Shown here in pieces: positions 31,273 through 64,000 of a stretch of 64,000 nucleotides of DNA (position 1 is its first letter; the number at the start of each line of letters is the position of its first letter). The notes below the pieces were generated by a model. It had not been told where the DNA came from and ran no database searches. It worked only from the letters and a program-made list of their open reading frames with translations. Location of the stretch: NCBI GenBank assembly GCA_034509925.1, contig CM067536.1, forward strand, positions 2,887,501 to 2,951,500, read 5' to 3'. A program made the translations under genes and the position numbers. The stretch is from Hirudinaria manillensis. Lineage: Eukaryota > Annelida > Clitellata > Hirudinida > Hirudinidae.

Positions 31273-34200
31273 CTATCGTCGATGAAGACGTCTGTTATTT
31301 CCGTAAGACTTGTCCGCGCTTGTAACTCTCTCCCGGGACGCTTTCCCCTTCTTTTGCGGCTTCTTTTCCAGGAGCAATTGAATCTCTTCAATTGATCCCT
31401 GATTTCTCAACGAGTGTTTCATCAGATTCTTGACCTTACTGCCGATCTGGATGACGGAATTGTTGTTGTTCGTCCTCTGACGGCTGATTTGGCCATAGGG
31501 ATCGATGAATTCCGAGAGCATGTGATTGACCAAACCGCCACTGTCAGATCTGTGTGGCTTCTGCTTAGTATCCCTATTTCTGTTCCTGTTCTTGTTCTTG
31601 TTTTTGTTTTTGCTGGTCATGCTCACGTCGGCCGATGTCGTCGGTATTTCAGAAATTTCGATGCCCTATAGGTTGGATTCGAATTCAGCAGGCTTTAAAT
31701 GGTTTTGGAGATGCTTTATTTCGGACGTCATTCAATTTATGTTTTTTAATTATATTTTTAAATGCTGTTTCTGCTATAATTGACTCTGCAACTTATTAAA
31801 TGTTAATTATTATTATTAGTAGTAGTATTATAACTATTATTTTTCAAAACTTTTATTCAGCCCGGATTACGTCCGTAAAACCATCACGCAAACAGTGAAC
31901 CTCATCGCTAATTTTAGAGTCCTCAGACGGGCCCGGGAAAACCCATGGACTGTTAACAGTAGCCTAAATATAATATTATAAATTAGATAAAGTACAATCA
32001 AATAAATGTTCTTCTCGGCCTTCTTCTTTTCCTTGCTTTCCAAGCGTTTGCTCTGAATGTTCTCCATATTCTATGGGTTTCTATCAGAGTCTTAATTGAT
32101 GTCCACGTTAAGAACCGCTTAGATATGCCAAGCTTCTTCCACGAGGTCCAAGTTTCCATGGCGATTGCTCCTCTCCAATTGATTATGTAGGCTGTGGCAA
32201 TCGCCTCCATTTTGCCCCTGCCCTGATTTGGGCTGTTAGCCTTCATCCAGCGATGAATGTCCGTGGTGTTATATTTGTCTATCTTGCTTTGGTGGACTCT
32301 ATCTAGGTCCACGTTATCGGACACCACGGCCACGTCACAAATTATGTAACGTTCATCGCTCCAGGCACAAAGATCGGGGATTCTGGTCCCGCTGACGGTT
32401 GGAATACGAGGCTCTCTTGTTGTTGAGTACCCCATCTGTGTCAAGACCGTCTCAAGCATCTTCGCTATACAGTCGTGCCTTGCATGGCGGGGCCCGTCGG
32501 TACTCGGACACTTTTGGATAATGTGGGCGAGAGATTCCATTTCCCCACATCTGGCTGCGCAGGCTGTGTTGAACAGGGGTGTTTTTCTGGAAGCCCGCAA
32601 TCTATTGAAAAGTGTTGCTGAGCGGACTTTAACACAGCTTATGTATTGGGTGGATGACATTCTGTTGATGCCATCCACCAGCCATTCACTTGGGGCTATT
32701 GCTTCCGGGAATCTCATCAGCCCGTGTCCGTCGACCGTTTTATAAAGTTCCCTCGCGGTAGATAGTCCACGAGGAACGTTCGGCTCATCTTTTTCCTTTG
32801 GCCTCCCAAATCTTTTGACTTCGCTGGCGATCATTGTGTTTTCGCGCAATGCATCCATCAGGAAGTTGTCGTTGCTCTCTTTGGCCTGCTGTAGAACTTT
32901 TGTCATTCTACGTATTCTAATTTCCGGAATCCATCGACGCAGTTGAAGGATTCCCATTCCTCCCGTTCTGATCGGGGCATGAAAGAATGCATTTGGGGTG
33001 TCTCTTGGCAGCCGGAGCCATTTTCGAACAGACCTCCTTATTGCGACATCAGCAGAATTCAAGGACTTGAGGCTGATCGCTTCGAAGGTGAGGAAGTGAA
33101 CAAGACTAGGGAGAAGATGAGTCCTTAGGACATACACTCTCTGGCATGGCACGAGCGGAGCCCGCGAAATCGAGTGAAGGCCTTTTTGAATTTTATCTGC
33201 AAGCGAAGCAAATTGCATTCGAGGTCCGATTCGAACTCCTAAATACTTATAGGTGTCAACAATGGAGAGTGCCCTGATATCCTTATCTTGCAGTGTCAGG
33301 TATGGCTCTGGGTTGACGATCCATTGTCTTTTACGAGTGATGACCTCAGTTCTCATCGAGGCACACTTGGATGCGTTCATGATGAGTCCAACTTTGGCCA
33401 TCGACACCTCCAGTTGTCGCAACATCACTTTCATTCCAACGTCTGTGCTGGACAGTAAAAGAAGGTCGTCTGCAAAGGCGATGTAGTTGCATTTTTCGGA
33501 GGATTTGCCTCCTCCCGTAACCCCAATTGATCTGTCAATGTCACTGACAACCATGTCAATGACAGCGTTGAATAACATCGGGGACATGGGGTCGCCTTGC
33601 CTTACTCCCCTGCCGACCTGTATGGATCTGCTGAGCTCCTTTCCCATCCTGATGTGCACCTGACAATTACTGTATATTTCCGACAAATATCTTGTTAACA
33701 GGGGTGGTGCGCCGAATCGTGAGGCTGCCCTGATGATCGATTCGTGGGAAACGGAATCGAACGCCTTAGACACGTCTACAAATGTCATGTTCAGCTTCTT
33801 TCTGTCTTGTCTGCTTTGGGCGACAAGAGCCTTTACAAGCCAGATGTTGTCGGCCAAACCGTCGCCTGATTGGAACGCCTTCTGTCTCGATGATAGTGGC
33901 CAATATACGGACATGCGTTTGTTGATCACTCGATGGAAGAGGCGACTCATGAGCGGGCTCACAGTGATTGGTCTGAATTCACTTGGATCGGCTGTTCCTC
34001 TCACCTTTGGGATAAAGCTGACGACGCCAACTTTGAAGGGAGATGGTGGCAGGCCCGTCAATAACCAGAGGGACATATGCACAGCAAAGTCGATTGGTCT
34101 GATGTTTTCCAAGTGTTTCCTTTTCACTCCATCCAGACCGGGAGCACCGTCTTTAAGACCTCGCAGAGCCATTTTTACTTCAGTGCAGCTGACGGGAGCC

Positions 34201-37200
34201 TCCAAATCATGACAAATACCGCAAACTGGAACCACCGATCTATCGTCTATAATTGACTTTTGGGAAAATATTGGTTCCCAAAACTGGAGCAGTTGTTCGT
34301 GTGGTATGGGTTTAACTTCCTCGTTATATTCTTCATTCAAAACCGAACGAGCTCCTGAAGATCTATTCTTCCTGAATAACCCTTGGACCTTCGCTCGTTT
34401 CTTCTTTCTGTCTTCCCATCTTATCTCCTTCTTGGATGGTCGGATCTTCGTTGTCCGAAATGGTCTGGTCTGATTTCCCGCTTTACTTTTGTCCGATGCA
34501 ACATAGGAAGTAGTCTCGACCTTCGGAGGCCGCTTTTCATATCTGTCAGCTCCCTTCTTTCCATTGTGCACTTTCAAACTCTCCATCCACTGTATGTATT
34601 CCTTGTCTATCAAACGGCGCTTTGAGTCGATGTCAACAATTTGATTTCTCAACAGTTCGGAAAGTTCCTCGCATGGCAGATTTATGTATTTGTAATTTGC
34701 GAGTATAAATTGCTGCAGTTGAATGAAGCCATTCACTTCCGTTTCGACTGGAGATGCCGTGAGTGTGGGAATCGCAGTACATTTCGTAGGCTTGCCAGAG
34801 CAAGTTGTCTTTTCAATGATGTAATTATTTAGATATTTGCGATATCCTGGCTTGTTCCTAACTTTCCTAATGGTTGCAACTGGGACGGTAGGCAAGTATC
34901 GGTGAAGGGCAAGGTTGACTTGCTTTTTCTCAAGTGAGTTCAGCCTCCATTCGGCGCTGGCAATCTCGTTCCATAGGCTGTCCACCCCTGAGAGTGCAGA
35001 AGTAATTTCACGGTTGGATGAACGTTCAACTTGACTATCTGATCCACCAGATTCTATTTTAGTCTGGTATTTCTCCAAGATGTTCCTATATTTTGGCTGC
35101 CTTCTGTGAGACTTAATGGCATTCAGTGACCTGTGTGGGAATCCTTTCTGTGCCTCTATGTTGATGTTTCTGATTCCTTTGCTTTTCAGTTCCAGTTCAA
35201 ACTTGGCTAACAGTGTGGATTCTTCCTCAGTCCAAACACACTTTGAATAACTCTTGCCAGCTCTTTCTTTGTGGTATTCCTCTGGGTGAGCATGGTTCTG
35301 ATGGATTCTGAGACCTCGTACTGTTTTGAAGACAGCTTTACAAAAACAACATGTTTCCTGCTTTTCCTCATTGCTTGTGTCTTTCACAACTGAATTTGTA
35401 ACTGGAGATACAGCAACGCTTTCGCCGGAGGAGTTCTTTCCAAATATGGCTCGAGAACGAAGAGTTCTAACTAGGTTGTCGGAATCGGACATTCCGAAAC
35501 GGTGAAAGCTACAAGTTTTCAAGAAGACTGCGAGTCCGTAAACGAAAGTCAACAGACACGACGATACGGAAGGATTTTCGTTCGCAGGTCTTCAATTTTC
35601 CCCTTTTCTTTTACAGAAACAGTAAAATGATTTCACCTTCAGACAAAACGGAAGGTAGGGGACACGAATAAGCTAAATTCGGAGAAATTCGATAATTTCC
35701 GAGCGAAATTAACATGTATTTAACACGAAAACACGCAAGAAAAACAAATCGACCGCTCCTTAGCTTACTCGCTCGAAAACTATTATTATTAGTAGTAGTA
35801 TTATTATTATCATCATTATTATTATGAACTGAATGCTTCTCTTCGTGTGTAAAACTTACTTCTGTCCTCAGATCGTATTGACGTCTTTTTTTCCCAGGCA
35901 AGCCTTTTATTTGCTTTAATACAGATTGAAATTTAAAAATTTTTAATTAATCTTAAATATTTTAATCGATGCTTAAATATATGCATATATATTTATGAAA
36001 TAATGGGGCGTCAAATGATCTGGGACGTTATTTTAGCTTTTCCCAGAGGATGGGCAAACCAACCCTCGGACAGCCCAATGACCCCTGTCTAACCGGGTGG
36101 TATGGAACTGTCAGTCAACGTCTCCCACCTCCCAAACCAATCAAAATTCAAAAGACTTATATAAAAATTCTTTTTTAAATTCTGGTTTATTTATGATCAA
36201 CATGGGCGTACCAATATTTGTCATCCGTTTAATTAATCCAATTAATTAATTGTAAAACTATTTTGGTCATACGGAAAAGTATTCGTATCAATGAATGAAA
36301 TATAGAAAAAGAACAATGCCATTCAAGATAGAAATCTTACTTTTCCCACTCTTGCCATTGTATCCGAGGCTTGCTAAAAACAAAACAAAAGGAAACTAAC
36401 CAAATGTTGTTTTAATAAATATTAATAATTTAACAATAATTAATTAACGATTGGATTAAAAACAATATCGAGTAATATAATTTATAAGTAACATATTAAT
36501 TTTAAACTAATTATATCGGTTGTAAACCAATAACAAGGCCGAGGTTAGAGGCAAAGAACCATTTTCAAAATGACAAATTCTTTTAGACATATTATTTGAG
36601 ACGTTGTTGTATTATAATTGAATTAACATGTAATTAATTATGAAACTGTACTTTGATAAGTTCAATCAATATTCGTAACAATGAACGAGATAAAAAAAAA
36701 ACCATTCAAGATAGAAATCTTACCCTTCCCAAAGTTCTCATTCTTGCCACTCTATCTGTTGCTTGCTATAATAGGAATGAATCAAAAGAAGAGATGTTTA
36801 ATAAAAACACGTTTGGATGAAAACTCATATCGTAGCAAATAATGTTAATTTAATTTCAAACTAATTAAATCGCTGACAAACTAATGACAAGGCCACGCTT
36901 GGAGGTAAAGAGCCATTTTCAAAATGGCAGATTATCTTAGGCGTGGTTGTATTATAATTTAATAAACAATTAAATAATGATAACAAACAATTAGTTATTA
37001 AATTGTATTTTGGTCATTTAAAAGAATATTCGTATCAACGAACGAGATAAAAGAAAAACAGTGCCATTCAAGATGGAAATCTTACTTTTGCAATTCTGTC
37101 CGATGCTTCCTAAAATATGAAGGAATCAAAATAAAATATGTTTTAATAAGAACGTCTGGGTGAAAACTCATATCGCAGTAAGTAATATAATTTGATTTCA

Positions 37201-39414
37201 AACTAATCCAATAACAAGGCCGCGCTTGAGAAAAAAAGTGAAGTTCAAGATAGAAATCTTACCCTTCCCGCAGTTCTCATTCTTGCCATTCTGTCCGACG
37301 TACGCTAAAATAGGAAGGAATCAAAATAAAAGATGTTTTAATAAAAACACGATTGGGTGATAACCCATATCGTAGCAAGAAATATAATTTAATTTCAAAC
37401 TAATTATATCGATTGCAAACCAATAGAAGCCATTCAAGATAGGAATCTTACTCTTGCCATTCTCTCCGATACTTCCTAAAATAAGAAGGGATCAACATTT
37501 AAAAAAAGGTGCTTTAATAAACACACGTTTGGGTGAAAACTTATATCATGGCAAGTAATATAATTTTATTTCAAATTAATTATGACGGTTGCAAACCAAT
37601 GACCAGACTGCGCTTGGTGGCGAAGAGCCATTTTCAAAATGGCAGATTCTTTTAAGAAGATTGTTTTAGACGTTGTGGTGTTATAATTGAATCAACGAAT
37701 AAATAATTAGTTGTGAAATTTTGTGTATTTTGGATATTTAAAATAATGTTCGTATCAACGAACGAGATACAAAAAAAAACCAGTGCCATTCAAGATAGAA
37801 ATCTTACCCTTCCATAAGTCCTCGCTCTTACCATTGTATCCGATGCTCGCTAAAGTAGGATGGAATCAAAAATAAAAGATGTTTTTTAATAAAAACGCGT
37901 TTGGATAAGAACTCATATCCTAGCAAATAATATAATTTAATTTCGAAATAATTTTGTCGGCTGCAAATCAATATCAAAGCAGTCTTTCTATTATTGTTTC
38001 CTTCAGATAATGTGATCCGCAGGCATTTCAGAGTTTCGGGGGAGAGCAATTTGACTTTATAAAATACTAATTCAAAACTTATATTAGTTACAGCTTATTA
38101 TTGTTTAAGCAGACTAAAGTCTTCGTAGCTATTGCTTCCCTAAAAATGACACCTGAAAGAATCACTGCTTTCTGTTCCAGGCCGCGTTTAGAGGCGAAGG
38201 GCCATTTTCAAATGGCTGATTTCTTTAGGCAGATTGTTTTATACGTTTATACGTTGTTGTATTGGATAAATTGAATAAATAAATAAATTAATTAATTAAT
38301 TAAAAAATTGTTAAATTATATTTTGGTCATTTAAAATAATGTTCGTATCAATAAATGAGATAAAAAAAAAAACTGCCGATAGAAATCTTACTCTTCCCAA
38401 AGTCCTCAGCCTTTCCACTGTATCGGAGAGTTGCTAAAACGTGAAGGAATCAAAATAAAAGATGTTTTAATACAAACACGTTTGGATGAAAACTCCTACA
38501 GCAGTGAATAATATAATTTCATTTCAAACTATTTTAATTATACCAATAACAAGGCCGCGGTTGGAGACAAAGCCATTTTTAAAATGGCAGATTCTTTTAG
38601 ATGTCATTGTACATTTATTACCATTAATATTTAATGACATTAATATTTAATTGTTAAAGTGCTGTTAGGAGGTCTTAGTATTACAATCGTTGTGATTTAA
38701 ATTAACGTTTGGTGGTCGTTGCCATGGTATTTCAGAGATTAAGAATTAATATTGTTTAAGTATTAACACTGCGCTTTGACAAGAAATTAAAATGGATCAA
38801 AATGAACTTGCCGAAATTTAGTTAAGCTAATTGTTTTTAAAATTAAAAAAAAAAGTTTTCTAAGACCTGACTCTTCATCCAAGTTTTTCTGGTCATGACG
38901 ATGAAAACGATCGTATTTCTGTTATTAATCGGAAGATGAAAGACATAGATTTCATTAATCATAATAAAAGGAAATATGTAAAATATCGCGTTTAAATTGT
39001 ATGATGCTATAAATATTAAATGAGACGTAATGATGAAACTAACGTTAAAATGATTACAACCCATATCCCGATGGAAAAGTATTTCACTTTGTTCCATTCC
39101 AAATCGCCATCGATTCCTACTTCGTAATCTCTGGCTCGATAAACAAATTTCTGCTTCAAATCATACAGGAACGTGTCAACCGCAGAAGTTCCCACAAAAG
39201 TGATTTCTTTAGTTAAACCGGCCAAAGTTGCAATTTTATATTCCTGACGTATAGTATTATTTTCAAGCGATGGGACTTTATACTCCGGTTCTTTGGGCAG
39301 TGTTGTGGGGATTTGGGGTTTGATAGACTCATTCTCAGTACCGGAATCGGTCGTTTTGGAGAAAGCAGCGCTAAGGATAATCGCAATTACATTAACATAT
39401 GGGACAACTTTCAT
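31273..39414 (-). CDS. type I membrane protein with tandem-microexon cytoplasmic tail (novel)
   Basis: Eleven exons join in frame to 372 aa: 39414-39044, 38918-38867, then microexons 38433-38392, 37849-37808, 37475-37452, 37304-37263, 37109-37086, 36765-36724, 36373-36341, then 35913-35860 and 31665-31273. Exon 1 gives a signal peptide (MKVVPYVNVIAIILSAAFS), a ~90-residue Thr/Glu/Lys-rich ectodomain and the first half of a membrane span. Its GT (phase 2) joins an exon that completes the span (YFSIGIWVVIIL + TNTIVFIVM) and ends RKTWMKSQ. Every later junction is phase 0. The seven microexons (42, 42, 24, 42, 24, 42, 33 nt) encode variants of xASDRMARMRTLGR. Next come an 18-aa basic exon and a 130-aa last exon with an Asn/Lys/Arg repeat and a basic end. 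No known family was recognised. By topology the repeats would be cytoplasmic. The last intron contains a whole retrotransposon in the same orientation. Confidence 0.75.
31832..35780 (-). mobile_element. full-length R2/R4-type non-LTR retrotransposon (RLE class)
   Basis: A 3.95-kb element lies between two identical 24-bp direct repeats, 31808-31831 and 35781-35804, each made of ATT triplets interrupted by AGTAGTAGT. These are best read as a target-site duplication made by target-primed reverse transcription into an (AAT/ACT)n microsatellite. The 5' UTR (about 290 bp before the first ATG) starts within a few bases of TCGAGCGAG. It contains TTCGTGTCCCCTAC near 35650-35670, both shared with the second copy at 60337. 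The 3' UTR is short (about 165 bp) and ends near GAAAAATAATAG. There is no poly(A) tail. The single long open frame is intact, and the element sits in the last intron of the microexon gene, same orientation. Confidence 0.88.
31998..35492 (-). CDS. R2/R4-type retrotransposon polyprotein (zinc finger, Myb-like, RT, endonuclease)
   Basis: 1164 aa counted from the first ATG at 35492; the frame stays open 20 codons further upstream without an ATG. Domains in order: one C2H2 finger (CCFC...RIHQNH), two Myb-like segments (CVWTEEESTLLAKFE; EKKQVNLALHRYLP...IRKVRNKPGY), a reverse transcriptase (FVDVSKAFDSVSH, GVRQGDPMSPMLFNAV, FADD at about codon 690 of the open frame), a CCHC knuckle (CAARCGEMESLAHIIQKC) and a restriction-like endonuclease (RIPDLCAW ... 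IICDVAVV). This order is that of the R2 and R4 groups, in which the protein nicks a specific DNA site and reverse-transcribes its RNA there. All visible catalytic motifs are intact, with no stops or frameshifts, so the copy may be recent or active. It is not in ribosomal DNA, the usual R2 home. Confidence 0.92.
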   Translation of the reverse strand: MSDSDNLVRTLRSRAIFGKNSSGESVAVSPVTNSVVKDTSNEEKQETCCFCKAVFKTVRGLRIHQNHAHPEEYHKERAGKSYSKCVWTEEESTLLAKFELELKSKGIRNINIEAQKGFPHRSLNAIKSHRRQPKYRNILEKYQTKIESGGSDSQVERSSNREITSALSGVDSLWNEIASAEWRLNSLEKKQVNLALHRYLPTVPVATIRKVRNKPGYRKYLNNYIIEKTTCSGKPTKCTAIPTLTASPVETEVNGFIQLQQFILANYKYINLPCEELSELLRNQIVDIDSKRRLIDKEYIQWMESLKVHNGKKGADRYEKRPPKVETTSYVASDKSKAGNQTRPFRTTKIRPSKKEIRWEDRKKKRAKVQGLFRKNRSSGARSVLNEEYNEEVKPIPHEQLLQFWEPIFSQKSIIDDRSVVPVCGICHDLEAPVSCTEVKMALRGLKDGAPGLDGVKRKHLENIRPIDFAVHMSLWLLTGLPPSPFKVGVVSFIPKVRGTADPSEFRPITVSPLMSRLFHRVINKRMSVYWPLSSRQKAFQSGDGLADNIWLVKALVAQSRQDRKKLNMTFVDVSKAFDSVSHESIIRAASRFGAPPLLTRYLSEIYSNCQVHIRMGKELSRSIQVGRGVRQGDPMSPMLFNAVIDMVVSDIDRSIGVTGGGKSSEKCNYIAFADDLLLLSSTDVGMKVMLRQLEVSMAKVGLIMNASKCASMRTEVITRKRQWIVNPEPYLTLQDKDIRALSIVDTYKYLGVRIGPRMQFASLADKIQKGLHSISRAPLVPCQRVYVLRTHLLPSLVHFLTFEAISLKSLNSADVAIRRSVRKWLRLPRDTPNAFFHAPIRTGGMGILQLRRWIPEIRIRRMTKVLQQAKESNDNFLMDALRENTMIASEVKRFGRPKEKDEPNVPRGLSTARELYKTVDGHGLMRFPEAIAPSEWLVDGINRMSSTQYISCVKVRSATLFNRLRASRKTPLFNTACAARCGEMESLAHIIQKCPSTDGPRHARHDCIAKMLETVLTQMGYSTTREPRIPTVSGTRIPDLCAWSDERYIICDVAVVSDNVDLDRVHQSKIDKYNTTDIHRWMKANSPNQGRGKMEAIATAYIINWRGAIAMETWTSWKKLGISKRFLTWTSIKTLIETHRIWRTFRANAWKARKRRRPRRTFI
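36341..38433 (-). repeat. tandem exon-plus-intron modules carrying seven microexons
   Basis: Each module, in plus orientation, has a conserved lead (cgagataaaa... cattcaagatagaaatcttac), a 24-42 nt exon complement, then ctaaaa...aggaatcaaaataaaag and a long AT-rich spacer including ggccgcgcttggag and gccattttcaaaatggcag. Spacing between exon starts is about 392, 344, 195, 171, 374 and 584 bases. The 584 includes an ~196-bp insertion, and the 171 and 195 units lack most of the spacer. The intron flanks are conserved along with the exons, so whole genomic modules were duplicated, not just coding sequence. Confidence 0.9.
37976..38171. repeat. ~196-bp insertion in one microexon module
   Basis: The module between the exons at 37849 and 38392 is interrupted, compared with its sisters, between aatcaatatc and ggccgcg. 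The extra segment is bounded by short inverted ends AAAGCAGT (37976-37983) and ACTGCTTT (38164-38171). It could be a small MITE or simple filler; the termini are too short to decide. Confidence 0.4.
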
Positions 39415-40326
39415 TTGTTTAATTCATTTGCACTTTCCGATAAAAAGAGGTTTGGTTTTGAAATAGTTTTAAACCAAGAATTCAGTATTTCAAATGCTCT
39501 CTGCAACGCTTTGATAAGCAATTTGCACAAGCTTTTGTGTCTGGAGGAATTACATTATGATAAAATCTATAGATAGCATTTGCTTAAATAAACATTCGGG
39601 TTGACGTAACAGATGGCCACTAAAAGCCAACGATTATATTAATAAGGTAAAGGATCTATTAACTAGCTAATAGACAAGATGCGTTAAATAACTCATAAAC
39701 AAGGAATTGATCAACTTTAGATAGACTAAATAGTCAATATGTGATGTTCTGTAACGCATGTTGGCAATTGAATTGTAAATAATAAATATTTATTGAAACA
39801 CCATTAACAAGTGATTCTACATAATTTTTTAATAATAACCATAAAGCACACTATCAAAAGGCCGTAAACAACTTTACATTTATTCCTTGAGAAAGATTTA
39901 CTTGATTAATAATTGAAATTAGGGTTACTTGGAATTAATAATTTTATGCTTAAATATTAATATCTGTCAGTTTAAAATTTATAAAAATTCAAATTGCATT
40001 TTACATTTCTTGTCGACAAAACCTCGCCTTTTGTTGTTTGGTAAATAATCATTCATTTTAATAATTTGGCTTTAAGCGGTCTAATCAGTCATTGACTTGC
40101 ATTTATTTTCGTAGTTTAAAATTTTGTTTTTCGTTAATAAGTTTACATCCTTAAATCAGGTTGGCCTTATTAAATTCATACTGTTAAACTTTGCTTGGTT
40201 TGATTGAATTTCTCATCGTTTCACGTCTAAGCTAGCATTCAAAAAATAAACTGCTTGAGAATTGTCATTATTCGGCACCGTTTTAAACAAGAATCGAACT
40301 TTTTCAGCGAATCTGACGATAGAGCC
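39415..40326. promoter_or_regulatory. divergent intergenic region, microexon gene / epsin
   Basis: 912 bp between two outward-facing start codons, AT-rich with no open exon. Probably holds both promoters and 5' UTRs. No specific motif is claimed. Confidence 0.4.
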
Positions 40327-41507
40327 ATGCCCATCCATCGGACGATCAAAAACGTCGTAAAGAATTACACTCCTGCCGAAATTAAAGTGAGAGAGGCGAC
40401 CTCCAATGACCCATGGGGTCCACCGACCACCCTCATGAACGAAATTGCAGAGCTGACGTACAATTCCATGGCTCTGGCCGAAATCATGAACATGATTTGG
40501 AAGAGGATGAGTGACCAAGGAAAGAACTGGAGACATGTCTTCAAATCTCTCAATTTGCTCGAATATCTGGCCAAGGTTGGGTCTCCTCAGGTTTCCGAAA
40601 GATGCAAGTCACAGATTCATGCACTTCAGGTTGTCGTTGTTTGGCTTGTGCTTGCTACTGAATAATTAACTAATTATTATTTAATTCACTAATTGTTATT
40701 ACATAATATCTTGATAATTTCACCTGTCATTTCTTGTTCTTCCATCATCAAAATAAGAATATTCCTCTAGCAACTTTGAAGTTCTTTTCAACAGAAATAT
40801 TTTTTTAAATTTTTGGATTATTTGTTTTCCAAAGCGTATTTACATTTCCCTCGTTAATTTATGCAACAATGTCATCACCACCATTAGACCGCTTAAAGCC
40901 ACCACCATATCCTCTACTTAATCAATCCCTCATCATTTCAAAACTTTGATTCGATTCTACCATAAAAACCAATGAACCAACAAACAAAACTAACGAATCG
41001 ATCGAAAACCGACCAGGGTTTGAACGAGTTCTCGTACTATGAGGAAGGCAAGGACTGCGGAGCTTGCATCAGAGAAAAGTCGAAGCAATTCGTGTCTCTA
41101 CTGAAGGACTCGGAGAGGTTTCGCAACGAAAGGATGAAGGCCTTGGCGGCCAAGGAACGATTGGCCCAGTCGACAGGACTAGGGGTTTGTGATCGGATTG
41201 TTTTTTGGATGCATTTGCTTTTTGCCATGTTGTGATTTTTCTTTGTGGTTTTTTTTTTCTCTTGACAAATTAAGTATTTTAATTAAGCTATACTTATGGA
41301 GTTGTACAAATGAACTGTTAGCAGTTTATGATATATATAATATAATATATTTATAATTAATTTATAAATTATCAGTTAGTTGATTTGGAATGCGATAATT
41401 GGCCGGGCAGATTGAATTCTAGCATGTAATGTCCATGGATGTAATTACATCTTCAAATTATGCAGATTATTGCATAATTACTATTTAAATAAAAATACCT
41501 GATGACC

Positions 41508-41541
<34 letters not shown>

Positions 41542-44500
41542 TTGATATTTTGCTCAACAGACATCCAAGATGTCACACTCATCATCTGACAGATACCTTT
41601 CCACATCAGGTAAACCACTTTGGATTTATAAAAGATTTTTTATTTCCAGTTTTTATGAGTTTATGCTAAAAAAAAGAAAAACTATTTTTAATAAATTACT
41701 TAATAATTAATATTAATTATTTAATAATTCACTGTTAGAAAAGTCATCATGTTTGTTTGTTTTAACAAACATTTATCCATCCATCCATCCATCCATCCAC
41801 CCATCCACCCATCCATCCATCCATCCATCCATCCATCCATCCATCCATCCATCCATCCATCCATCCATCCATCCATCCATCCATCCATCCATCCATCCAT
41901 CCATCCATCCATCCATCCATCCATCCATCCATCCATCCATCCATCCATCCATCCATCCATCCATCCATCCATCCATCCATCCATCCATCCATCCATCCAT
42001 CCATCCATCCATCCATCCATCCATCCATCCATCCATCCATCCATCCATCCATCCATCCATCCATCCATCCATCCATCCATCCATCCATCCATCCATCCAT
42101 CCATCCATCCATCCATCCATCCATCCATCCATCCATCCATCCATCCATCCATCCATCCATCCATCCATCCATCCATCCATCCATCCATCCATCCATCCAT
42201 CCATCCATCCATCCATCCATCCATCCATCCATCCATCCATCCATCCATCCATCCATCCATCCATCCATCCATCCATCCATCCATCCATCCATCCATCCAT
42301 CCATCCATCCATCCATCCATCCATCCATCCATCCATCCATCCATCCATCCATCCATCCATCCATCCATCCATCCATCCATCCATCCATCCATCCATCCAT
42401 CCATCCATCCATCCATCCATCCATCCATCCATCCATCCATCCATCCATCCATCCATCCATCCATCCATCCATCCATCCATCCATCCATCCATCCATCCAT
42501 CCATCCATCCATCCATCCATCCATCCATCCATCCATCCATCCATCCATCCATCCATCCATCCATCCATCCATCCATCCATCCATCCATCCATCCATCCAT
42601 CCATCCATCCATCCATCCATCCATTTATGTAGCGACACATTTGTGCAAATATTACCAAGAAAAAATAACTCAAATAAACTCATATTTCAATAAAATATTG
42701 ATCTGCAACTTTATAAGTTACTTTAAATACAGGTCCAACTTGTGGTATTTAAGTGATCTTGGATTATTTTTCGAATCCACTCACTTGAATCCACTCACTC
42801 GAATCCACTCATTCCAATCCATTCACTCCAATCCACTCACTCGAATCCACTCACTCAAATCCACTCACTCAAATCCACTCGCATCCTCCCGCCTCGTGAA
42901 CATTCAACCGTTTCGATCCAGGACGAGTCACCGCCACCCAGCCGGCCCTGAGCGCGGACCTGGAAGCGGCCCGGCCCTCGAGCTACGGCGAGGAAGACCT
43001 TCAACTGCAACTGGCACTGGCGATGAGCAAAGAAGAACACGAGGAGGAGTTGAAGAGACGCAAAGGGGACGAGTTCAAACTCCAGCTCGCACTCGAGGAG
43101 AGCAAGAAGATCAACGAGGAGGTAAGCGTCGATGATGATTGTGATGTCTGTGATGATGGTGATGATTATGCTTGTAATTGGTTTATATGTAAAGAGAGAT
43201 AGTTAAGACTATCGCTAGAGATGAGGAAGGTGATAATAATGCTGTTGATGATGATGATGGATATGATAAGGTAGGATTGATAATGTTGGGGAACACTTTG
43301 GTGATGAATCGGATAATTAGGATGAAAACAGAGTAGCTGATGGCCGCGATAATAACGTAGTTCAGTCAGGACTTGTGTTATGGCATTGCACATTAAAACA
43401 ATGTTTATTAATGCATTGCATATTAATGTAATGTGTGTTAACACTCATTGTATATATTAATACTGATTGCATATTAATACAAAGTGTGTTAATGCATTGT
43501 ATATTAATAAAAAGTGTGTTAGCACTCATTGTATATTAATACTAATTGTATATTAATACAAAGTGTGTTAATGCATTGTATATTAATACAATTGTATATT
43601 AATTCTTTGTATATTGATAAGATGTGTATCAACACCTCGTATATTTACATAATGTGCACTGATACATTGTATATTAACACATCATTTATTAACGCCGCAT
43701 CCAATCGTAACAAGAAGCATCTCGTGCCTCAAAGCAGACGTTTTACTTCCTTGCGTTCCTCAAAACGTAATTACATCGGATCCTGTTATCCTGCGAATAG
43801 CAATAGACTTTGATAGACCATCAAAAGGAATCCATTTTGTTTGGGGTTCACGAGCTGGGGTTAACCAGTGCTGGGGGTTTTTGCTCCCAAAAAGCAGGAC
43901 TTTGAATCAGGGTCAGGCAACGTTTTATAAATTAGGAAATAAGAAATAATGAGCATTGAAACAATCACATGATATTATTATTATTGTTATTATTATTATT
44001 ATTATCATCATTATTATTGTTATTATTATTGTTGTTGTTGTTATTTCTTATGCATTTTTATTTATATAGATTAATTTTATTATTTTAGTATATTTAATTT
44101 AAACGATAAGTGTCATTTGAAATTACATTTATTCTTTGTTAGGACGTTAGGAAACTAATCACGTTATTATCACAAGCTGAACGTTATTATAATCAATAAC
44201 TAGCGATAACTATCAATAATCTTCATGCTTCTGACCTTTTTTGAAGTTTCCTAAGACAATTTGTACCGAATTTTCAACATCATTCATCATTCAATACAAA
44301 GTGTGTTCATGCATTGTATATTAATACAAACTATGTTAATGCATTGTGTATATGTATGCAATACTTTAGGCTCAATACTTTGTAAATCTACCTGAAGATT
44401 CTGTTGAATTGCTTAAGAATCTGTCAGAAGATCATTAGCTTCGTTGAAAGCATCACATTTCTGTCATTCATCTGAACTTCTGAAATTAGATCACTCTCGA

Positions 44501-52223: not shown

Positions 52224-53279
52224 ATGGACTTTCACGTTTTGGTTCTCTTGCTTTTAGGGGCTGTGATTTCACATTGCGCCCCTGGTTTGAAATGGTCGCC
52301 TATTATGCCAGGAAAAGAAATTCAGTATACCGATTATTTCAACTTCGATGTGAACAAGGAATGGACAAGTTTCAGGATTAACTACAAGCGCGAGTTCAAC
52401 TTGATTGGACAGGAAGAAGTAAGGAAAGCGATATTTGAGAAGAATCTGAAGGCAATCAAATTGCACAACTTCAGACATTCCAGAGGTCTCTCCTCTTTCA
52501 AAATGGCCGTCAACGAATTTGCAGACTTGACTTTTGAGGAGTACGTTGGGCTCATGTTGAGTTCCGCTATGACGAACAAGACGTTCCGCTACGGTAGCTC
52601 CTTCATGAAACCCTTGAACGTAGACAAAATCCCACAAGAAGTCGATTGGAGAGACCATGGATACGTCACACCCGTAAAGAACCAGGGCCAATGTGGTTCG
52701 TGCTGGGCATTCAGTTCAACGGGTGCCATTGAAGGGCAGCACTTCAGAAAGACTGGAAAGTTGGTATCTCTCAGCGAACAGAACTTGGTCGACTGTTCGT
52801 TTTCTTTTGGAAACAACGGATGCCACGGGGGTCTCATGGATCGGGCCTTTGAATACGTTAAACAGAACTCTGGAATCGATACCGAAGCTTCGTATCCGTA
52901 CGTTGCCCGCGAACAGAGGTGTAGTTTCAACAACGCAACGGTCGGTGCAACGGTATCTGGTCACGTAGACATCGTTCCAGACGAACAGAAACTCCAGGAA
53001 GCTCTTGCAACAGTTGGTCCAGTCTCCGTTGCCATAAACGCTGGCCTTCAGTCGTTTCGATTTTATTCAGAAGGTGTCTATGACGAATCCGAATGCGATC
53101 CTGCTGGCTTGAACCACGGCGTGCTGGCAGTGGGCTATGGATCAGAGAGTGGAAAAGATTTTTGGCTCGTTAAGAACAGTTGGGGAGAGAGTTGGGGAAT
53201 TGGTGGGTACGTCAAAATGGCGAGGAATAAAAGGAACCAGTGTGGTATTGCCAGTATGGCCAGTTACCCGCTCGTGTGA
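52224..53279 (+). CDS. CTSL: cathepsin L-like cysteine protease, copy 1 (intronless)
   Basis: A single open frame of 351 aa. Residues 1-18 are a signal peptide. The propeptide has an ERFNIN-type helix ([15 protein letters not shown], 64-78) and a GNFD-like segment ([10 protein letters not shown], 94-103). The mature enzyme should start near [12 protein letters not shown] (about 135-146). Catalytic residues: Q154 (oxyanion), C160 in CGSCW, H298 in LNHGV, N318 in KNSWG. One N-glycosylation sequon is at N237. It is a lysosomal or secreted papain-family endopeptidase. The absence of any coding intron is unusual for an animal cathepsin L and suggests a retrocopy or lineage intron loss. A good acceptor-like ctttcgttgcgcag about 70 bases upstream could end a 5' UTR intron. 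AATAAA at about 53406 fits polyadenylation. Confidence 0.96.
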
Positions 53280-54313: not shown

Positions 54314-55369
54314 ATGGACTTTCACGTTTTGGTTCTCGTGCTTTTAGGGGCTGTGATTTCACATTGCGCCCCTGGTTTGAAATGGTCGCCTATTATGCCA
54401 GGAAAAGAAATTCAGTATACCGATTATTTCAACTTCGATGTGAACAAGGAATGGACGAGTTTTAGGATTAACTACAAGCGCGAGTTCAACTTGATTGGAC
54501 AGGAAGAAGTAAGGAAAGCGATATTTGAGAAGAATCTGAAGGCAATCAAATTGCACAACTTCAGACATTCCAGAGGTCTCTCCTCTTTCAAAATGGCCGT
54601 CAACGAATTTGCAGACTTGACTTTTGAGGAGTACGCTGGGCTCATGTTGAGTTCCGCTATGATGAACAAGACGTTTCGCTACGGTAGCTCCTTCATGAAA
54701 CCCTTGAATGTAGACAAAATCCCACAAGAAGTCGATTGGAGAGACCATGGATACGTCACACCCGTAAAGAACCAGGGCCAATGTGGTTCGTGCTGGGCAT
54801 TCAGTTCAACGGGTGCCATTGAAGGGCAGCATTTCAGAAAGACTGGAAAGTTGGTATCTCTCAGCGAACAGAACTTGGTCGACTGTTCGTTTTCTTTTGG
54901 AAACAACGGATGCCACGGGGGTCTCATGGATCGGGCCTTTGAATACGTTAAACAAAACTCTGGAATCGATACCGAAGCTTCGTATCCGTACGTTGCCCGC
55001 GAACAGAGGTGTAGTTTCAACAACGCAACGGTCGGTGCAACGGTATCTGGTCACGTAGACATCGTTCCAGACGAACAGAAACTCCAGGAAGCTCTTGCAA
55101 CAGTTGGTCCAGTCTCCGTTGCCATCAACGCTGGCCTTCAGTCGTTTCGATTTTATTCAGAAGGTGTCTATGACGAATCCGAATGCGATCCTGCTGGCTT
55201 GAACCACGGCGTGCTGGCAGTGGGCTATGGATCAGAGAGTGGAAAAGATTTTTGGCTCGTTAAGAACAGTTGGGGAGAGAGTTGGGGAATTGGTGGGTAC
55301 GTCAAAATGGCGAGGAATAAAAGGAACCAGTGTGGTATTGCCAGTATGGCCAGTTACCCGCTCGTGTGA
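54314..55369 (+). CDS. CTSL: cathepsin L-like cysteine protease, copy 2 (intronless)
   Basis: The tandem partner of the preceding gene: 351 aa, with only three amino-acid differences (L9 to V in the signal peptide, V108 to A, and T117 to M in the propeptide). The mature enzyme is predicted to be identical, with the same Q154, C160, H298 and N318. Most DNA changes are silent or in flanks, which points to a recent duplication or ongoing gene conversion. The same upstream acceptor-like site (near 54244) and AATAAA (near 55502) are retained, so both copies look functional. Confidence 0.96.

Positions 55370-60283: not shown

Positions 60284-60336
<53 letters not shown>
60091..60336. other. LRR-gene upstream region ending in an (AAT)n tract
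   Basis: Short 5' flank of the minus-strand LRR gene. 60282-60336 is a perfect (AAT)n microsatellite that directly abuts the second retroelement, and is probably its insertion target. Confidence 0.7.
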
Positions 60337-60337
<1 letters not shown>

Positions 60338-63300
60338 TGCGTCTCGAGCGAGTGGTCGTGCGGCTGTTTTTCGCGAATTCTCGATAATTTTACGGTTTTT
60401 GCGGCAGTTTTGCTTTTTTTCTGACCATTTCGTGTCCCCTACATTCCGTTTAGGATTGTGAGACCATTCTCAAGTTCAAAGGTGAAAAACTGAAGTTGAA
60501 CAGCGTAAATTTATCTGTCGACGTCTTGCATTGTTCTAGACTCCACAACTTCAGGAAAACAGAAGAGAAAGAAATCATTTTAAGCCTGTTTGCTTCCGAG
60601 AGCGTCTGCTAGTCGATGCTTTTGTGAATTTTTGGATTTAATTCAACTTGAGGAATCGTCGGAAAGAACAAGAAGTAAACAATGCAAACCCGCGCGCGCA
60701 CCTCGTTGGCTCTCACAAAGGTGAAAGACTGTTCTGGCCCTTCTGAGACTCCAGTGACTGTACAGCCAAAGTGCGAATATTGTGATGCGGAATTCAAAAC
60801 ATCCAAAGGAGCAAGAATTCACGAAAGTCGCGTCCATCCAGTTCAGTGTCACGCAAAAAGGTCAGGAAAAAGCTACGGAAAATGTAGATGGGATAAAGAG
60901 GAATCCCATGTGATGGCAATGTTGGAGATAGAACTGAAGCAACAAGGAGTTAGATTCATCAACATTGAACTCCACAAACATTTCCCTCACCGAACCTTGG
61001 CCTCCATTCGAGGACATAGAAGACAGACAGAATACAGAACTATTCTCCAGCAATGCATCAGTAAAACCAGGTCCTCAGAAAATTTTCAGACGTCAGTAGC
61101 CGAGAGTCCAACTGAGCTGACTGCAAGTAGAAATTCTGTGTGCGAAGAATCATCTGAGGAAGTTCACTCGGGACATTCAAAAGAACTATGGAGGAATATG
61201 TCGAGAGCTGAAGCTGGACTTAATGACCAGGAAAGAAAGAGAATCAATATCGCCCTCTCCAGGCACTTCCCGGATATGAGTGTTAGGCGCATAAAGAGAA
61301 TCAGAAACAAGCCTGGTTATAAGAGCCTTCTAAGCAATGCCTTTCAGGATTCTGTGGCCTCGGGACAGACTGAAAACCAGATTTTAGGAATGCCGCCTAC
61401 GAATGGGGAGCAAGAGAAAATAGTCAGTAACTCAATTGCAATAGACAATCAGTTAAAGTTGAAACAGTTTGTGATTGAAAGATACCAAATGATCCATCTA
61501 GATGGTGAAGAGTTCTCCAACCTCATAAACGTGAAGCTCCCGAGAACAGAGAGAATCTCACTGATTAATAAGGAATATGAAAAGTGGATCTCAATTCAAG
61601 TTCCACAGAAGATCAATAGCAGTGAGCCCAAACAACCTGACAATCGTGCTGAGAGTGCCCATAGAAACAACGATCATGTCCAAAGCAAATCAGAAAACCA
61701 ATGCATAACCTTCCGGAAGACAAAAATCAGGGTGTCAAAGAAGGAACAAAAAAAAGTTAGAGCGACAGAAGTGCTATGCTAGTCTGCAAAAACTTTTCCG
61801 AAAAAGTCCAACATTTGCAGCGCACTCGGTTTTGAAAGGAGAATATGAAGTCCAGACAGGCGCTTTCCCTGCGGGGTTGGCGGATTATTGGAGCGAGATC
61901 TTTGGGGAGACATCGGTGGAGGATGACAGGCCTCTGGTGACGGTCAGAGACATCGCAACAGAAATGCAAGATCCGATCACCAGATGGGATGTAGAGATCG
62001 CATTCCGGGGACTAAAAGACAGCAGCCCTGGACAGGATGGCATTCGAAAAAGGCATCTTGCAAAATTCAGTTATGACCATCTCGCTGTTCACATGTCTCT
62101 CTGGTTGCTAACAGGAGTACCTCCCGCATCATTCAAATCGGGAATCGTCACGTTCATTCCGAAGAATAAAGAGGCCTCGACTCCGAGCGATTATCGACCT
62201 ATCACTGTTGGTCCGATTATGGCGCGTCTCTTCCATCGCATCCTTGGGAGTAGAATGTTGGGGAATTGGCCCCTCTCATCGAGACAAAAAGCTTTCTGTC
62301 CGGGGGATGGCATTGCACAAAATCTCTTGCTCATCAAATCAATAATTCAAAAAAAGAAAGAGCAGATCCAAAAACTTAACCTGACATTTGTCGACGTCAC
62401 CAAAGCTTTCGACTCAGTATCCCATAAATCTATCCTCAGGGCTGCTGCCAGACTCGGTACTCCACCTCTCCTCCTAAACTACTTAGAGGAACTGTACAAA
62501 GAAAGTGAGGTTCACTTTAAAGTCGAGGGAGTACTTACTAGAGGGGTACAGGTGAAAAGGGGAGTTCGTCAAGGAGACCCGATGTCCCCCAACTTATTCA
62601 ATGCGGTCATGGATATGATAACCAGCGAACTGGATCAATCAATTGGTGTCACGGCTGGCAGAAATTCAGCGTTCAGATGCAATTATATTCGCTGATGATC
62701 TGGTGGTGATGTCAAAGACTGACATCGGAATGAAGAAGTTGATGGAGCAACTTGAAACTGCAATGGGCAGCGCAGTACTTAAGATCAATCCAAACAAGTG
62801 CGCTACAATCAGAACGGAAATCCATTGCAAAGAAAAACGCTGGATAATCAATCCTACGCCCTACATTAAATTTGAATCACAGGATATCAAAGCAATAGAC
62901 GTCTCACAGACCTACAAATACCTGGGGATACAGATTGGAGTTCGAAAGCAGCCAGTGTCGATCGGTTATGAAATTCAAAAGTCTCTCAACTCCATTTCAA
63001 AAGCACCAATTAAGCCTTGCCAACGCCTATATATTTTAAAAGTCCATCTGATACCAAGCCTCGTTCACAAACTTACCTTTGGCGAGGTCAACCTCGGTTC
63101 TCTGAGTTCCTCAGATACCGCGATTAGGAAAGCAACAAGACATTGGCTTCATCTTCCAAAGGATGTCCCAAAGCAATTTTACCATGCTCCCGTCAAATCC
63201 GGTGGTCTGGGAATTCTCCCACTTAAACAATGGGTTCCCCGGCTCAGAATAAATAGATTGACAGAGATCTTCTCTGAGACAGGTGGTCGTAAAGATGAAT

Positions 63301-64000
63301 TCCTGTTGGATGTTCTTAGGAACAACACCCTGATCATGAGAGAATTCCGGAAATTTGGAACATCGGAGGCAAAACAAGCAAAACTGGATTGGAAAGTGGC
63401 GGCCTCAGAGAGCCTATACAAAACTGTAGACGGTTATGGATTAAGATCATTCACCAGAGGAATTGGAATGAGTGATTGGATTTCAGCAGCGGTTCCAAGA
63501 GTTCCATCTGGCCAATACATCAAATGCATAAAAGTCCGAGCGGCCGCCCTTCAGACTCCGAGCATCGAGATGGAATCCTCTGGCTTCAAGGAGATGCGGG
63601 GAGGGCTGCAATTCTTTCGAATCGCTGGGCCACATGATCCAGAGATGCCCGAGAACGGATGGCCCAAGGCATGAAAGACACAACGCTGTCGTCAGGGAAT
63701 TAGAACGGGAATTACGAAAAAGGGGTTACACTACGGTAATAGAGCCCCATATTCCCACAGAAAAGGGACTCAAAATTCCTGATTTGTGTGCCTGGACACG
63801 TGACCTCTACATAGTGACTGATGTTGCCGTGACATCCGATGATTATGATTTAGACAAGTGTCATGAGAGCAAGGTTTCAAAGTACGGCATTAAAGATGTT
63901 CATGATTGGATGCTGAGGAATGCCCCAGTGGGCGTCCAAAGAATGCTTCCGAAGGTTGGCGCCTGCGTTTGCAACTGGAGAGGAGTCTTGAGTGCAGAAT
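60337..64000 (+). mobile_element. second R2/R4-type non-LTR element, frameshifted, running off the window
   Basis: The element starts directly after (AAT)n with a 5' UTR that shares TCGAGCGAG near its start and TTCGTGTCCCCTAC(A/C)TTCC (near 60429-60450) with the copy at 31832-35780. The right end lies beyond 64000. Proteins of the two elements align throughout but differ at roughly half of positions by eye, so they belong to different families rather than being recent copies of each other. Confidence 0.88.
60682..64000 (+). pseudogene. R2/R4-type retrotransposon polyprotein, broken by three frameshifts
   Basis: Begins at ATG 60682 with a C2H2 finger (CEYCDAEFKTSKGARIH) and two Myb-like segments (CRWDKEESHVMAMLE; ERKRINIALSRHFP). 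Frame is lost in an A run at about 61748-61756, resumes through 62695 with the RT motifs (FVDVTKAFDSVSH, GVRQGDPMSPNLFNAV), and is lost again at about 62685, immediately before IFADD. It is lost a third time near 63545-63552, after KVRAAAL. After that the third frame recovers the CCHC knuckle (CGEGCNSFESLGHMIQRC) and endonuclease motif (KIPDLCAWTRDLYIVTDVAVTSD), still open at the window end. There are no in-frame stops within the aligned segments apart from those following the shifts, so decay is moderate. Sequencing or assembly indels cannot be excluded. Confidence 0.88.

Follow-up and report, generated by a model that had tools for sequence, protein, structure and literature searches.

Seven tandem microexons lie on the minus strand of the Hirudinaria manillensis genome at 38433-36341. 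They measure 42, 42, 24, 42, 24, 42 and 33 nt, all are in phase 0, and they are genuine sequence features that very probably code for protein. Positions are counted in the window, the whole stretch of 64,000 nt that we analysed. A flatworm source of the DNA is rejected: the hirudin family has a match above its cut-off on contig 4 of this assembly, and in none of 14 control genomes. Judging from the sequence, the leech gene probably works like a flatworm micro-exon gene (MEG): the exons are duplicated, their use would be optional and in frame, and the product would be of a secretory type. Micro-exon genes are treated as a flatworm speciality, and their origin and purpose are unclear. In the leech, the copies can still be recognised as tandem duplicates together with their introns. 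Thus the array suggests one route to such genes, and its copy history is still readable.

Each microexon can be located to the base and each is open, as a preliminary description of this DNA had proposed. All are read from the minus strand. Four have the full length: m1 (38392..38433, QLSDTVERLRTLGR), m2 (37808..37849, RASDTMVRARTYGR), m4 (37263..37304, RTSDRMARMRTAGR) and m6 (36724..36765, QATDRVARMRTLGR). The other three are deletion forms; m3 (37452..37475, EVSERMAR) and m5 (37086..37109, EASDRIAK) lack 18 nt, and m7 (36341..36373, QASDTMARVGK) lacks 9 nt. Every microexon has a GTAAGA donor (7/7) and an AG acceptor (7/7). The donors are thus as first described, but the acceptor TTTTAG occurs in only five of the seven (m2 has CTTTAG and m6 TTATAG), and the CTATAG once ascribed to the microexons belongs to the last exon. 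When m1 to m7 are joined, frame 0 stays open over 83 codons; frames 1 and 2 contain stops. The microexons are purine-rich (70% A+G) and the introns T-rich. Inside m2 (37849-37808(-)) there is a further GTAAG donor, in frame after 18 nt, which would give the shorter version RASDTM.

The repeat unit has the form x-A-S-D-x-M-A-R-M-R-T-L-G-R. The seven microexons sit in seven related exon-plus-intron copies and their 83 residues include 20 Arg (net charge +12), which bears out the view that they are variants of one Arg-rich unit. For the joined tail the hydrophobic moment is 0.42, compared to 0.13 for shuffled versions, a comparison in which shuffling also destroys the repeat. Tested unit by unit for an amphipathic helix, only three of the seven units pass P 0.05.

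The array is framed by further candidate exons. Exon 1, as first modelled (39044..39414 (-)), would encode a signal peptide, an ectodomain of ~90 aa and the start of a hydrophobic span; its N-terminus is hydrophobic and, judged by its residues, of the signal-peptide type. The ORF continues to a stop at 39016, and phase-0 donors at 39121 and 39088 would end the exon sooner. If intron 1 were retained, 39016-39414(-) would code for a complete 132-aa protein that ends with a hydrophobic span and then the stop. A weak candidate exon 2 of 52 nt (38867..38918 (-)) would complete the membrane span. Downstream of m7 follow a candidate phase-0 exon of 54 nt (35860..35913 (-), QIKGLPGKKRRQYDLRTE), with a good donor (GTAAGT) and a poor acceptor, and the last exon (31273..31665 (-)), which contributes 130 aa rich in K, R, N and S and has the acceptor CTATAG and a TAG stop. 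The joins from exon 1 to m1, into the 54-nt exon and into the last exon have weak or middling splice scores.

We could reproduce the 372-aa product proposed earlier. It consists of eleven exons (39414-39044, 38918-38867, m1-m7, 35913-35860 and 31665-31273) and has no internal stops; the 54-nt exon, which the earlier list lacked, is needed to arrive at 372 aa. In Pfam, neither the exon 1 ORF nor the last-exon ORF has a match at 0.01. For the 372-aa product, Rabaptin (PF09311; Rab5-bind) was rejected, with E 0.0068 and a score of 16.4 bits where the cut-off is 33.6, as was an apolipoprotein family (0.13 in Pfam, under the cut-off). Against PDB sequences the same product has three meaningless matches (E 1.8-4.3).

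The array arose from larger units than the exons. On the minus strand, 36228..38611 is a tandem array of exon-plus-intron units in seven copies, and self-comparison of this region gives ~65 to 86% identity between units, with shorter matches being higher. When the window is searched with a profile of the unit, seven copies come up, and the exon is intact in all of them. Outside the array the profile yields two insignificant matches (E 0.16 and 0.55), and in a further 200 kb of sequence it yields none. Searched against the genome, a piece of 651 nt from the array has six matches among the best candidates scored, all at its own locus. Exon 1 and the last exon each have a single strong match in the genome, namely themselves (another match to exon 1 has E 2.3). 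By these searches the microexon gene is single-copy in the genome. We also looked for diverged tandem arrays of at least four copies in 26 ten-kb stretches, 20 from elsewhere in the genome and six covering positions 1-60000 of the window. One stretch has such an array, and it is the microexon locus. To judge by these comparisons, the array is the product of tandem duplication of the whole exon-plus-intron unit.

We compared the array with chance and with neutral expectation. By a rule that asks for an AG, 15-54 open nucleotides in threes, a GTAAG and a pyrimidine tract, the minus strand of the window has nine candidate exons within 3 kb (m1-m7, the internal donor of m2 and the 54-nt exon), compared to at most three in 40 control strand-stretches of 10 kb each from elsewhere in the genome; this rule, like the simulations below, was devised after the array had been seen. 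In a neutral simulation, with the tree, the substitution rate and the indel rate all derived from the introns, all seven microexons stay intact (AG/GT, frame, no stop) in 0.0004 (0.04%) of 20,000 runs; with the rate halved, the fraction is 0.015. The chemical class of the residue is kept in 10 of the 14 codon columns in frame 0, while the neutral mean is 3.7-3.8, counting stop-free runs only. At matched divergence, none of 1,500 runs reaches ten such columns for either of two ancestors (0/1,500 each); at lower divergence 2/1,500 runs do. The other two frames keep the class in 3/13 and 5/13 columns. Exon indels measure 18 and 9 nt; among 28 gap events in the introns, 24 have lengths not divisible by three.

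Other measures do not set the exons apart. At the level of letters the exons are no better kept than the introns: copies differ by 28% in exons, 24% in upstream introns and 21% in downstream introns. The ratio pN/pS between copies is 0.74, which is not significantly low (P 0.18). Codon usage fails to distinguish the microexons, with 17% of random open segments scoring as high; the training ORFs for this score were chosen by length, and it separates none of the gene's pieces convincingly. The residue class is kept although the letters diverge, hence it is the character of the peptide, and not its letters, that would be maintained. Natural selection appears to have kept the microexons coding, in frame and in chemical type.

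The equal divergence of exons and introns would suit a different reading, in which the array is a decaying or never-used intronic tandem repeat and the exons are chance look-alikes. We consider this quite improbable: all copies retain frame, splice sites and residue chemistry, the array is unique among the 26 stretches, and neutral decay is rejected because both intactness and class retention exceed the simulations. It is unlikely, too, that the locus holds two units, an intronless gene for a 132-aa membrane protein (exon 1) and a separate transcript that carries the microexons behind an unseen first exon. The exon 1 ORF does stop at 39016 and contains its own membrane span (hydropathy 2.18). 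However, exon 1 and m1 lie on the same strand, less than 600 nt apart, and a phase-0 donor fits m1.

If the exons do belong together, the side of the membrane on which the tail ends up depends on how exon 1 is joined to the array, and the tail is about equally likely to be cytoplasmic or outside the cell. In one tentative reading the gene encodes a type I membrane protein with an Arg-rich cytoplasmic tail, the length and phosphorylation sites (RRAS, RRTS) of which would be tuned by exon choice. Exons 1 and 2 together produce a 19-residue window with a hydropathy of 2.43, followed by TRKTWMK, and their join preserves the phase, leaving 372 aa without stops. Two RRx[ST] motifs stand at unit starts, so that 56, 56 and 16 of the 128 subsets of microexons contain 0, 1 or 2 of them. 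Yet exon 2 has only 17 codons, lacks a coding signal by the codon-usage score and has an acceptor of -1.0 bits and a donor (CAG/GTCTTA) of -3.7 bits. The model that includes it ranks 38th of 438 joins by a rough splice score, which combines generic matrices with an arbitrary 3-bit penalty per extra exon. The join of exons 1 and 2 keeps phase, open frame and membrane span but has poor splice sites, and the earlier placement of the tail inside the cell depends on this weak exon.

The top-ranking join leads to the other side of the membrane, with a comparable, still minority, chance of being right. Here the donor at 39121 closes exon 1 and is spliced straight to m1, in phase 0 and with no additional exon; the product is open over 329 aa and would be a secreted form without membrane span. 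The repeats would then be extracellular in a multi-copy peptide precursor, and cleavage at basic sites would perhaps release amidated fragments such as QLSDTVERLRTL-amide. Glycine followed by basic residues is the usual signature of amidation plus cleavage, and K or R follows six of the seven glycines in the 101 residues of the small exons (including GRR and GKKRR). The drop of the codon-usage score past 39085 also fits the shorter exon 1. On the other hand, the R/K codon at the end of the unit is favoured by the splice donor consensus as well, and the copies are not independent of each other. Furthermore, the frame of exon 1 stays open beyond 39121 through a convincing membrane span, many internal single Arg would be cleaved too, and we recognised no known peptide family.

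Whichever way the tail points, the proposed history and use of the array are the same. A single exon of 14 codons, together with the intron beside it, would have been amplified in tandem to seven copies, and small in-frame deletions would have led to unit versions of 8, 11 and 14 residues. Because every microexon starts and ends between codons, and all lengths are multiples of three, any subset can be skipped in frame, as was first claimed. The spliceosome could thus include or drop any microexon with the reading frame unharmed. The product would begin with a signal peptide and a domain of ~80-90 aa, followed by a repetitive, Arg-rich tail that can vary in length and by a basic C-terminal part. 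We infer that all exons are on one transcript, that skipping occurs and that the product takes the secretory route. All 128 subsets do differ from each other, but the figure of up to 128 tails is an arithmetic ceiling and not evidence. The splice sites of the microexons are strong enough by score for constant inclusion; if all were always used, the array would simply encode a repeated tail.

The introns of the array share a further element. The palindrome GCCATTTTnAAAATGGC, or a near form of it, occurs on the minus strand upstream of m1 (38572..38588) and in the introns m1-m2 (38201..38216), m2-m3 (37627..37643), m5-m6 (36912..36928) and m6-m7 (36558..36574), and these five copies could pair with one another. 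They diverge by 7%, compared to 41% and 29% alongside, although the five were chosen by pattern. In the intron alignment, the palindrome block is the most conserved 17-nt window (0.929), but column shuffles put the 95% limit higher, at 0.961. Pairing energies between copies lie between -14.3 and -21.8 kcal/mol. Among 3,000 random pairs the lowest energy is -15.3, and two of the ten pairs of copies fail to beat it. With conservation under the shuffle limit and two of ten pairings no better than the best random pair, we reject these data as proof that the palindromes regulate splicing. The palindrome has three more exact sites in the genome, none with an array in the surrounding 2.6-2.7 kb. The surroundings of these sites are reminiscent of inverted YY1 sites, and a DNA-binding role of the palindrome is possible.

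A bolder scenario, to which we give little credence, is that an annelid blood-feeder evolved a micro-exon gene independently of flatworms by amplifying a microexon together with a self-complementary intron element, and that pairing loops out blocks of exons. The removable cassettes would be m1, m2, m6 and m3-m4-m5 together, the last as one block because the m3-m4 and m4-m5 introns have no palindrome; m7 would stay. The ceiling would then fall from 128 tails to 16, and these would be regulated. In the leech array it can be tested directly whether intronic palindromes, once duplicated, guide which small exons are retained.

How far the gene resembles flatworm MEGs can be judged by description rather than by sequence. 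Schistosome MEGs form protein variants through alternative splicing, as the skippable exons of the leech gene would. MEGs are described as having runs of short exons with lengths divisible by three, a signal peptide and low sequence constraint (PMC7653826, PMC5825161). Such short exons and low sequence constraint are shared between the leech gene and the described MEGs of Schistosoma, Echinococcus and Hymenolepis, and a signal peptide would be, given the hydrophobic N-terminus; internal duplication is shared with MEG-26. An operational rule given for MEGs sets a minimum of seven exons, of which half or more must be shorter than 70 nt and divisible by three (PMC7653826). If the exons are used as predicted, 8 of the 11 in the model first proposed and 8 of the 10 in the direct join are of this kind, and the run of small exons has eight members (m1-m7 and the 54-nt exon). 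The likeness to schistosome genes that had been noted is upheld.

A narrower description fits less well. In a schistosome MEG, ~80% of the coding region is reported to lie in symmetric exons of 6-36 bp, and the product to have a signal peptide and to be secreted or exposed as a membrane-anchored protein (PMC5825161); 3 of 24 MEGs are listed there as predicted to be membrane-anchored. In the leech, the small exons make up 27% (model with exon 2) or 31% (direct join) of the coding length, and four of the seven microexons exceed 36 nt, at 42 nt each. We do not file the gene as a member of the MEGs, because this coding fraction falls short and the phylum differs. A further difference is that all seven exons of the leech gene are copies of one unit. 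The preliminary description went too far in treating duplication itself as the contrast with schistosome genes, since MEG-26 is reported to be internally duplicated with a repeated pattern of exon lengths (PMC5825161). An amphipathic helix is likewise described for MEG-26 (PMC7653826, PMC5825161).

Runs of small exons and duplicated intron elements are also familiar from other systems. Exons 4-8 of the fast skeletal troponin T gene TNNT3 are small and used combinatorially. Their alternative splicing is described as changing one region of the protein (PMC2447309). The leech gene shares the run of small exons, but TNNT3 encodes a cytosolic muscle protein with proven exon usage, whereas usage in the leech is predicted. 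For Dscam and other genes, the duplication of exons with intron stem-loops has been proposed to create competing structures (PMC6071210). Like such clusters, the leech array duplicated intron elements along with exons. In contrast to Dscam-type clusters, from which exactly one exon is used, the leech exons could all be used together, with pairing predicted from sequence; the phase-0, 3n design of m1-m7 does not enforce mutual exclusivity. In the open-access literature on leech and annelid microexons we found no such gene. Isolated microexons are on record for an annelid Dlx gene (PMC3199776).

The last intron has a history of its own. Of its 4,194 nt, ~4,020 are a LINE-type retrotransposon with its surrounding microsatellite (31806..35825 (-)); the element carries an uninterrupted reverse transcriptase ORF (RVT_1) and stays outside the gene product. 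A TAA/ACT microsatellite lies on both flanks. At least 16 other copies of at least 3.9 kb are found on other contigs or in other places (best 40 of 840 candidates scored). Their identity of 96-99% at near full length indicates that the insertion is young. The LINE accounts for the long last intron, hence the last exon would formerly have been ~0.2 kb from the 54-nt exon. A second LINE-type element with a reverse transcriptase ORF occurs at 60682-63674 (+), after an (AAT)n tract at 60286-60336. Both LINEs have a TAA-type microsatellite beside them, as do Dong/R4-type elements.

The window contains further repeated sequence. Two cathepsin L-like ORFs, uninterrupted and 351 aa each, stand in tandem on the plus strand at 52224-53279 and 54314-55369. 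They differ at 10 of 1,056 nt and in 3 aa, and they belong to a repeat of ~2.1 kb that is 93% identical by BLAST. An ATCC tetranucleotide array of ~850 bp and 212 copies (41775-42624) gives rise to long spurious ORFs on either strand. Closest to the microexon gene, ~0.8 kb from its start and in divergent orientation, is an exon with an ENTH domain of the epsin type at 40255-40665 (+).
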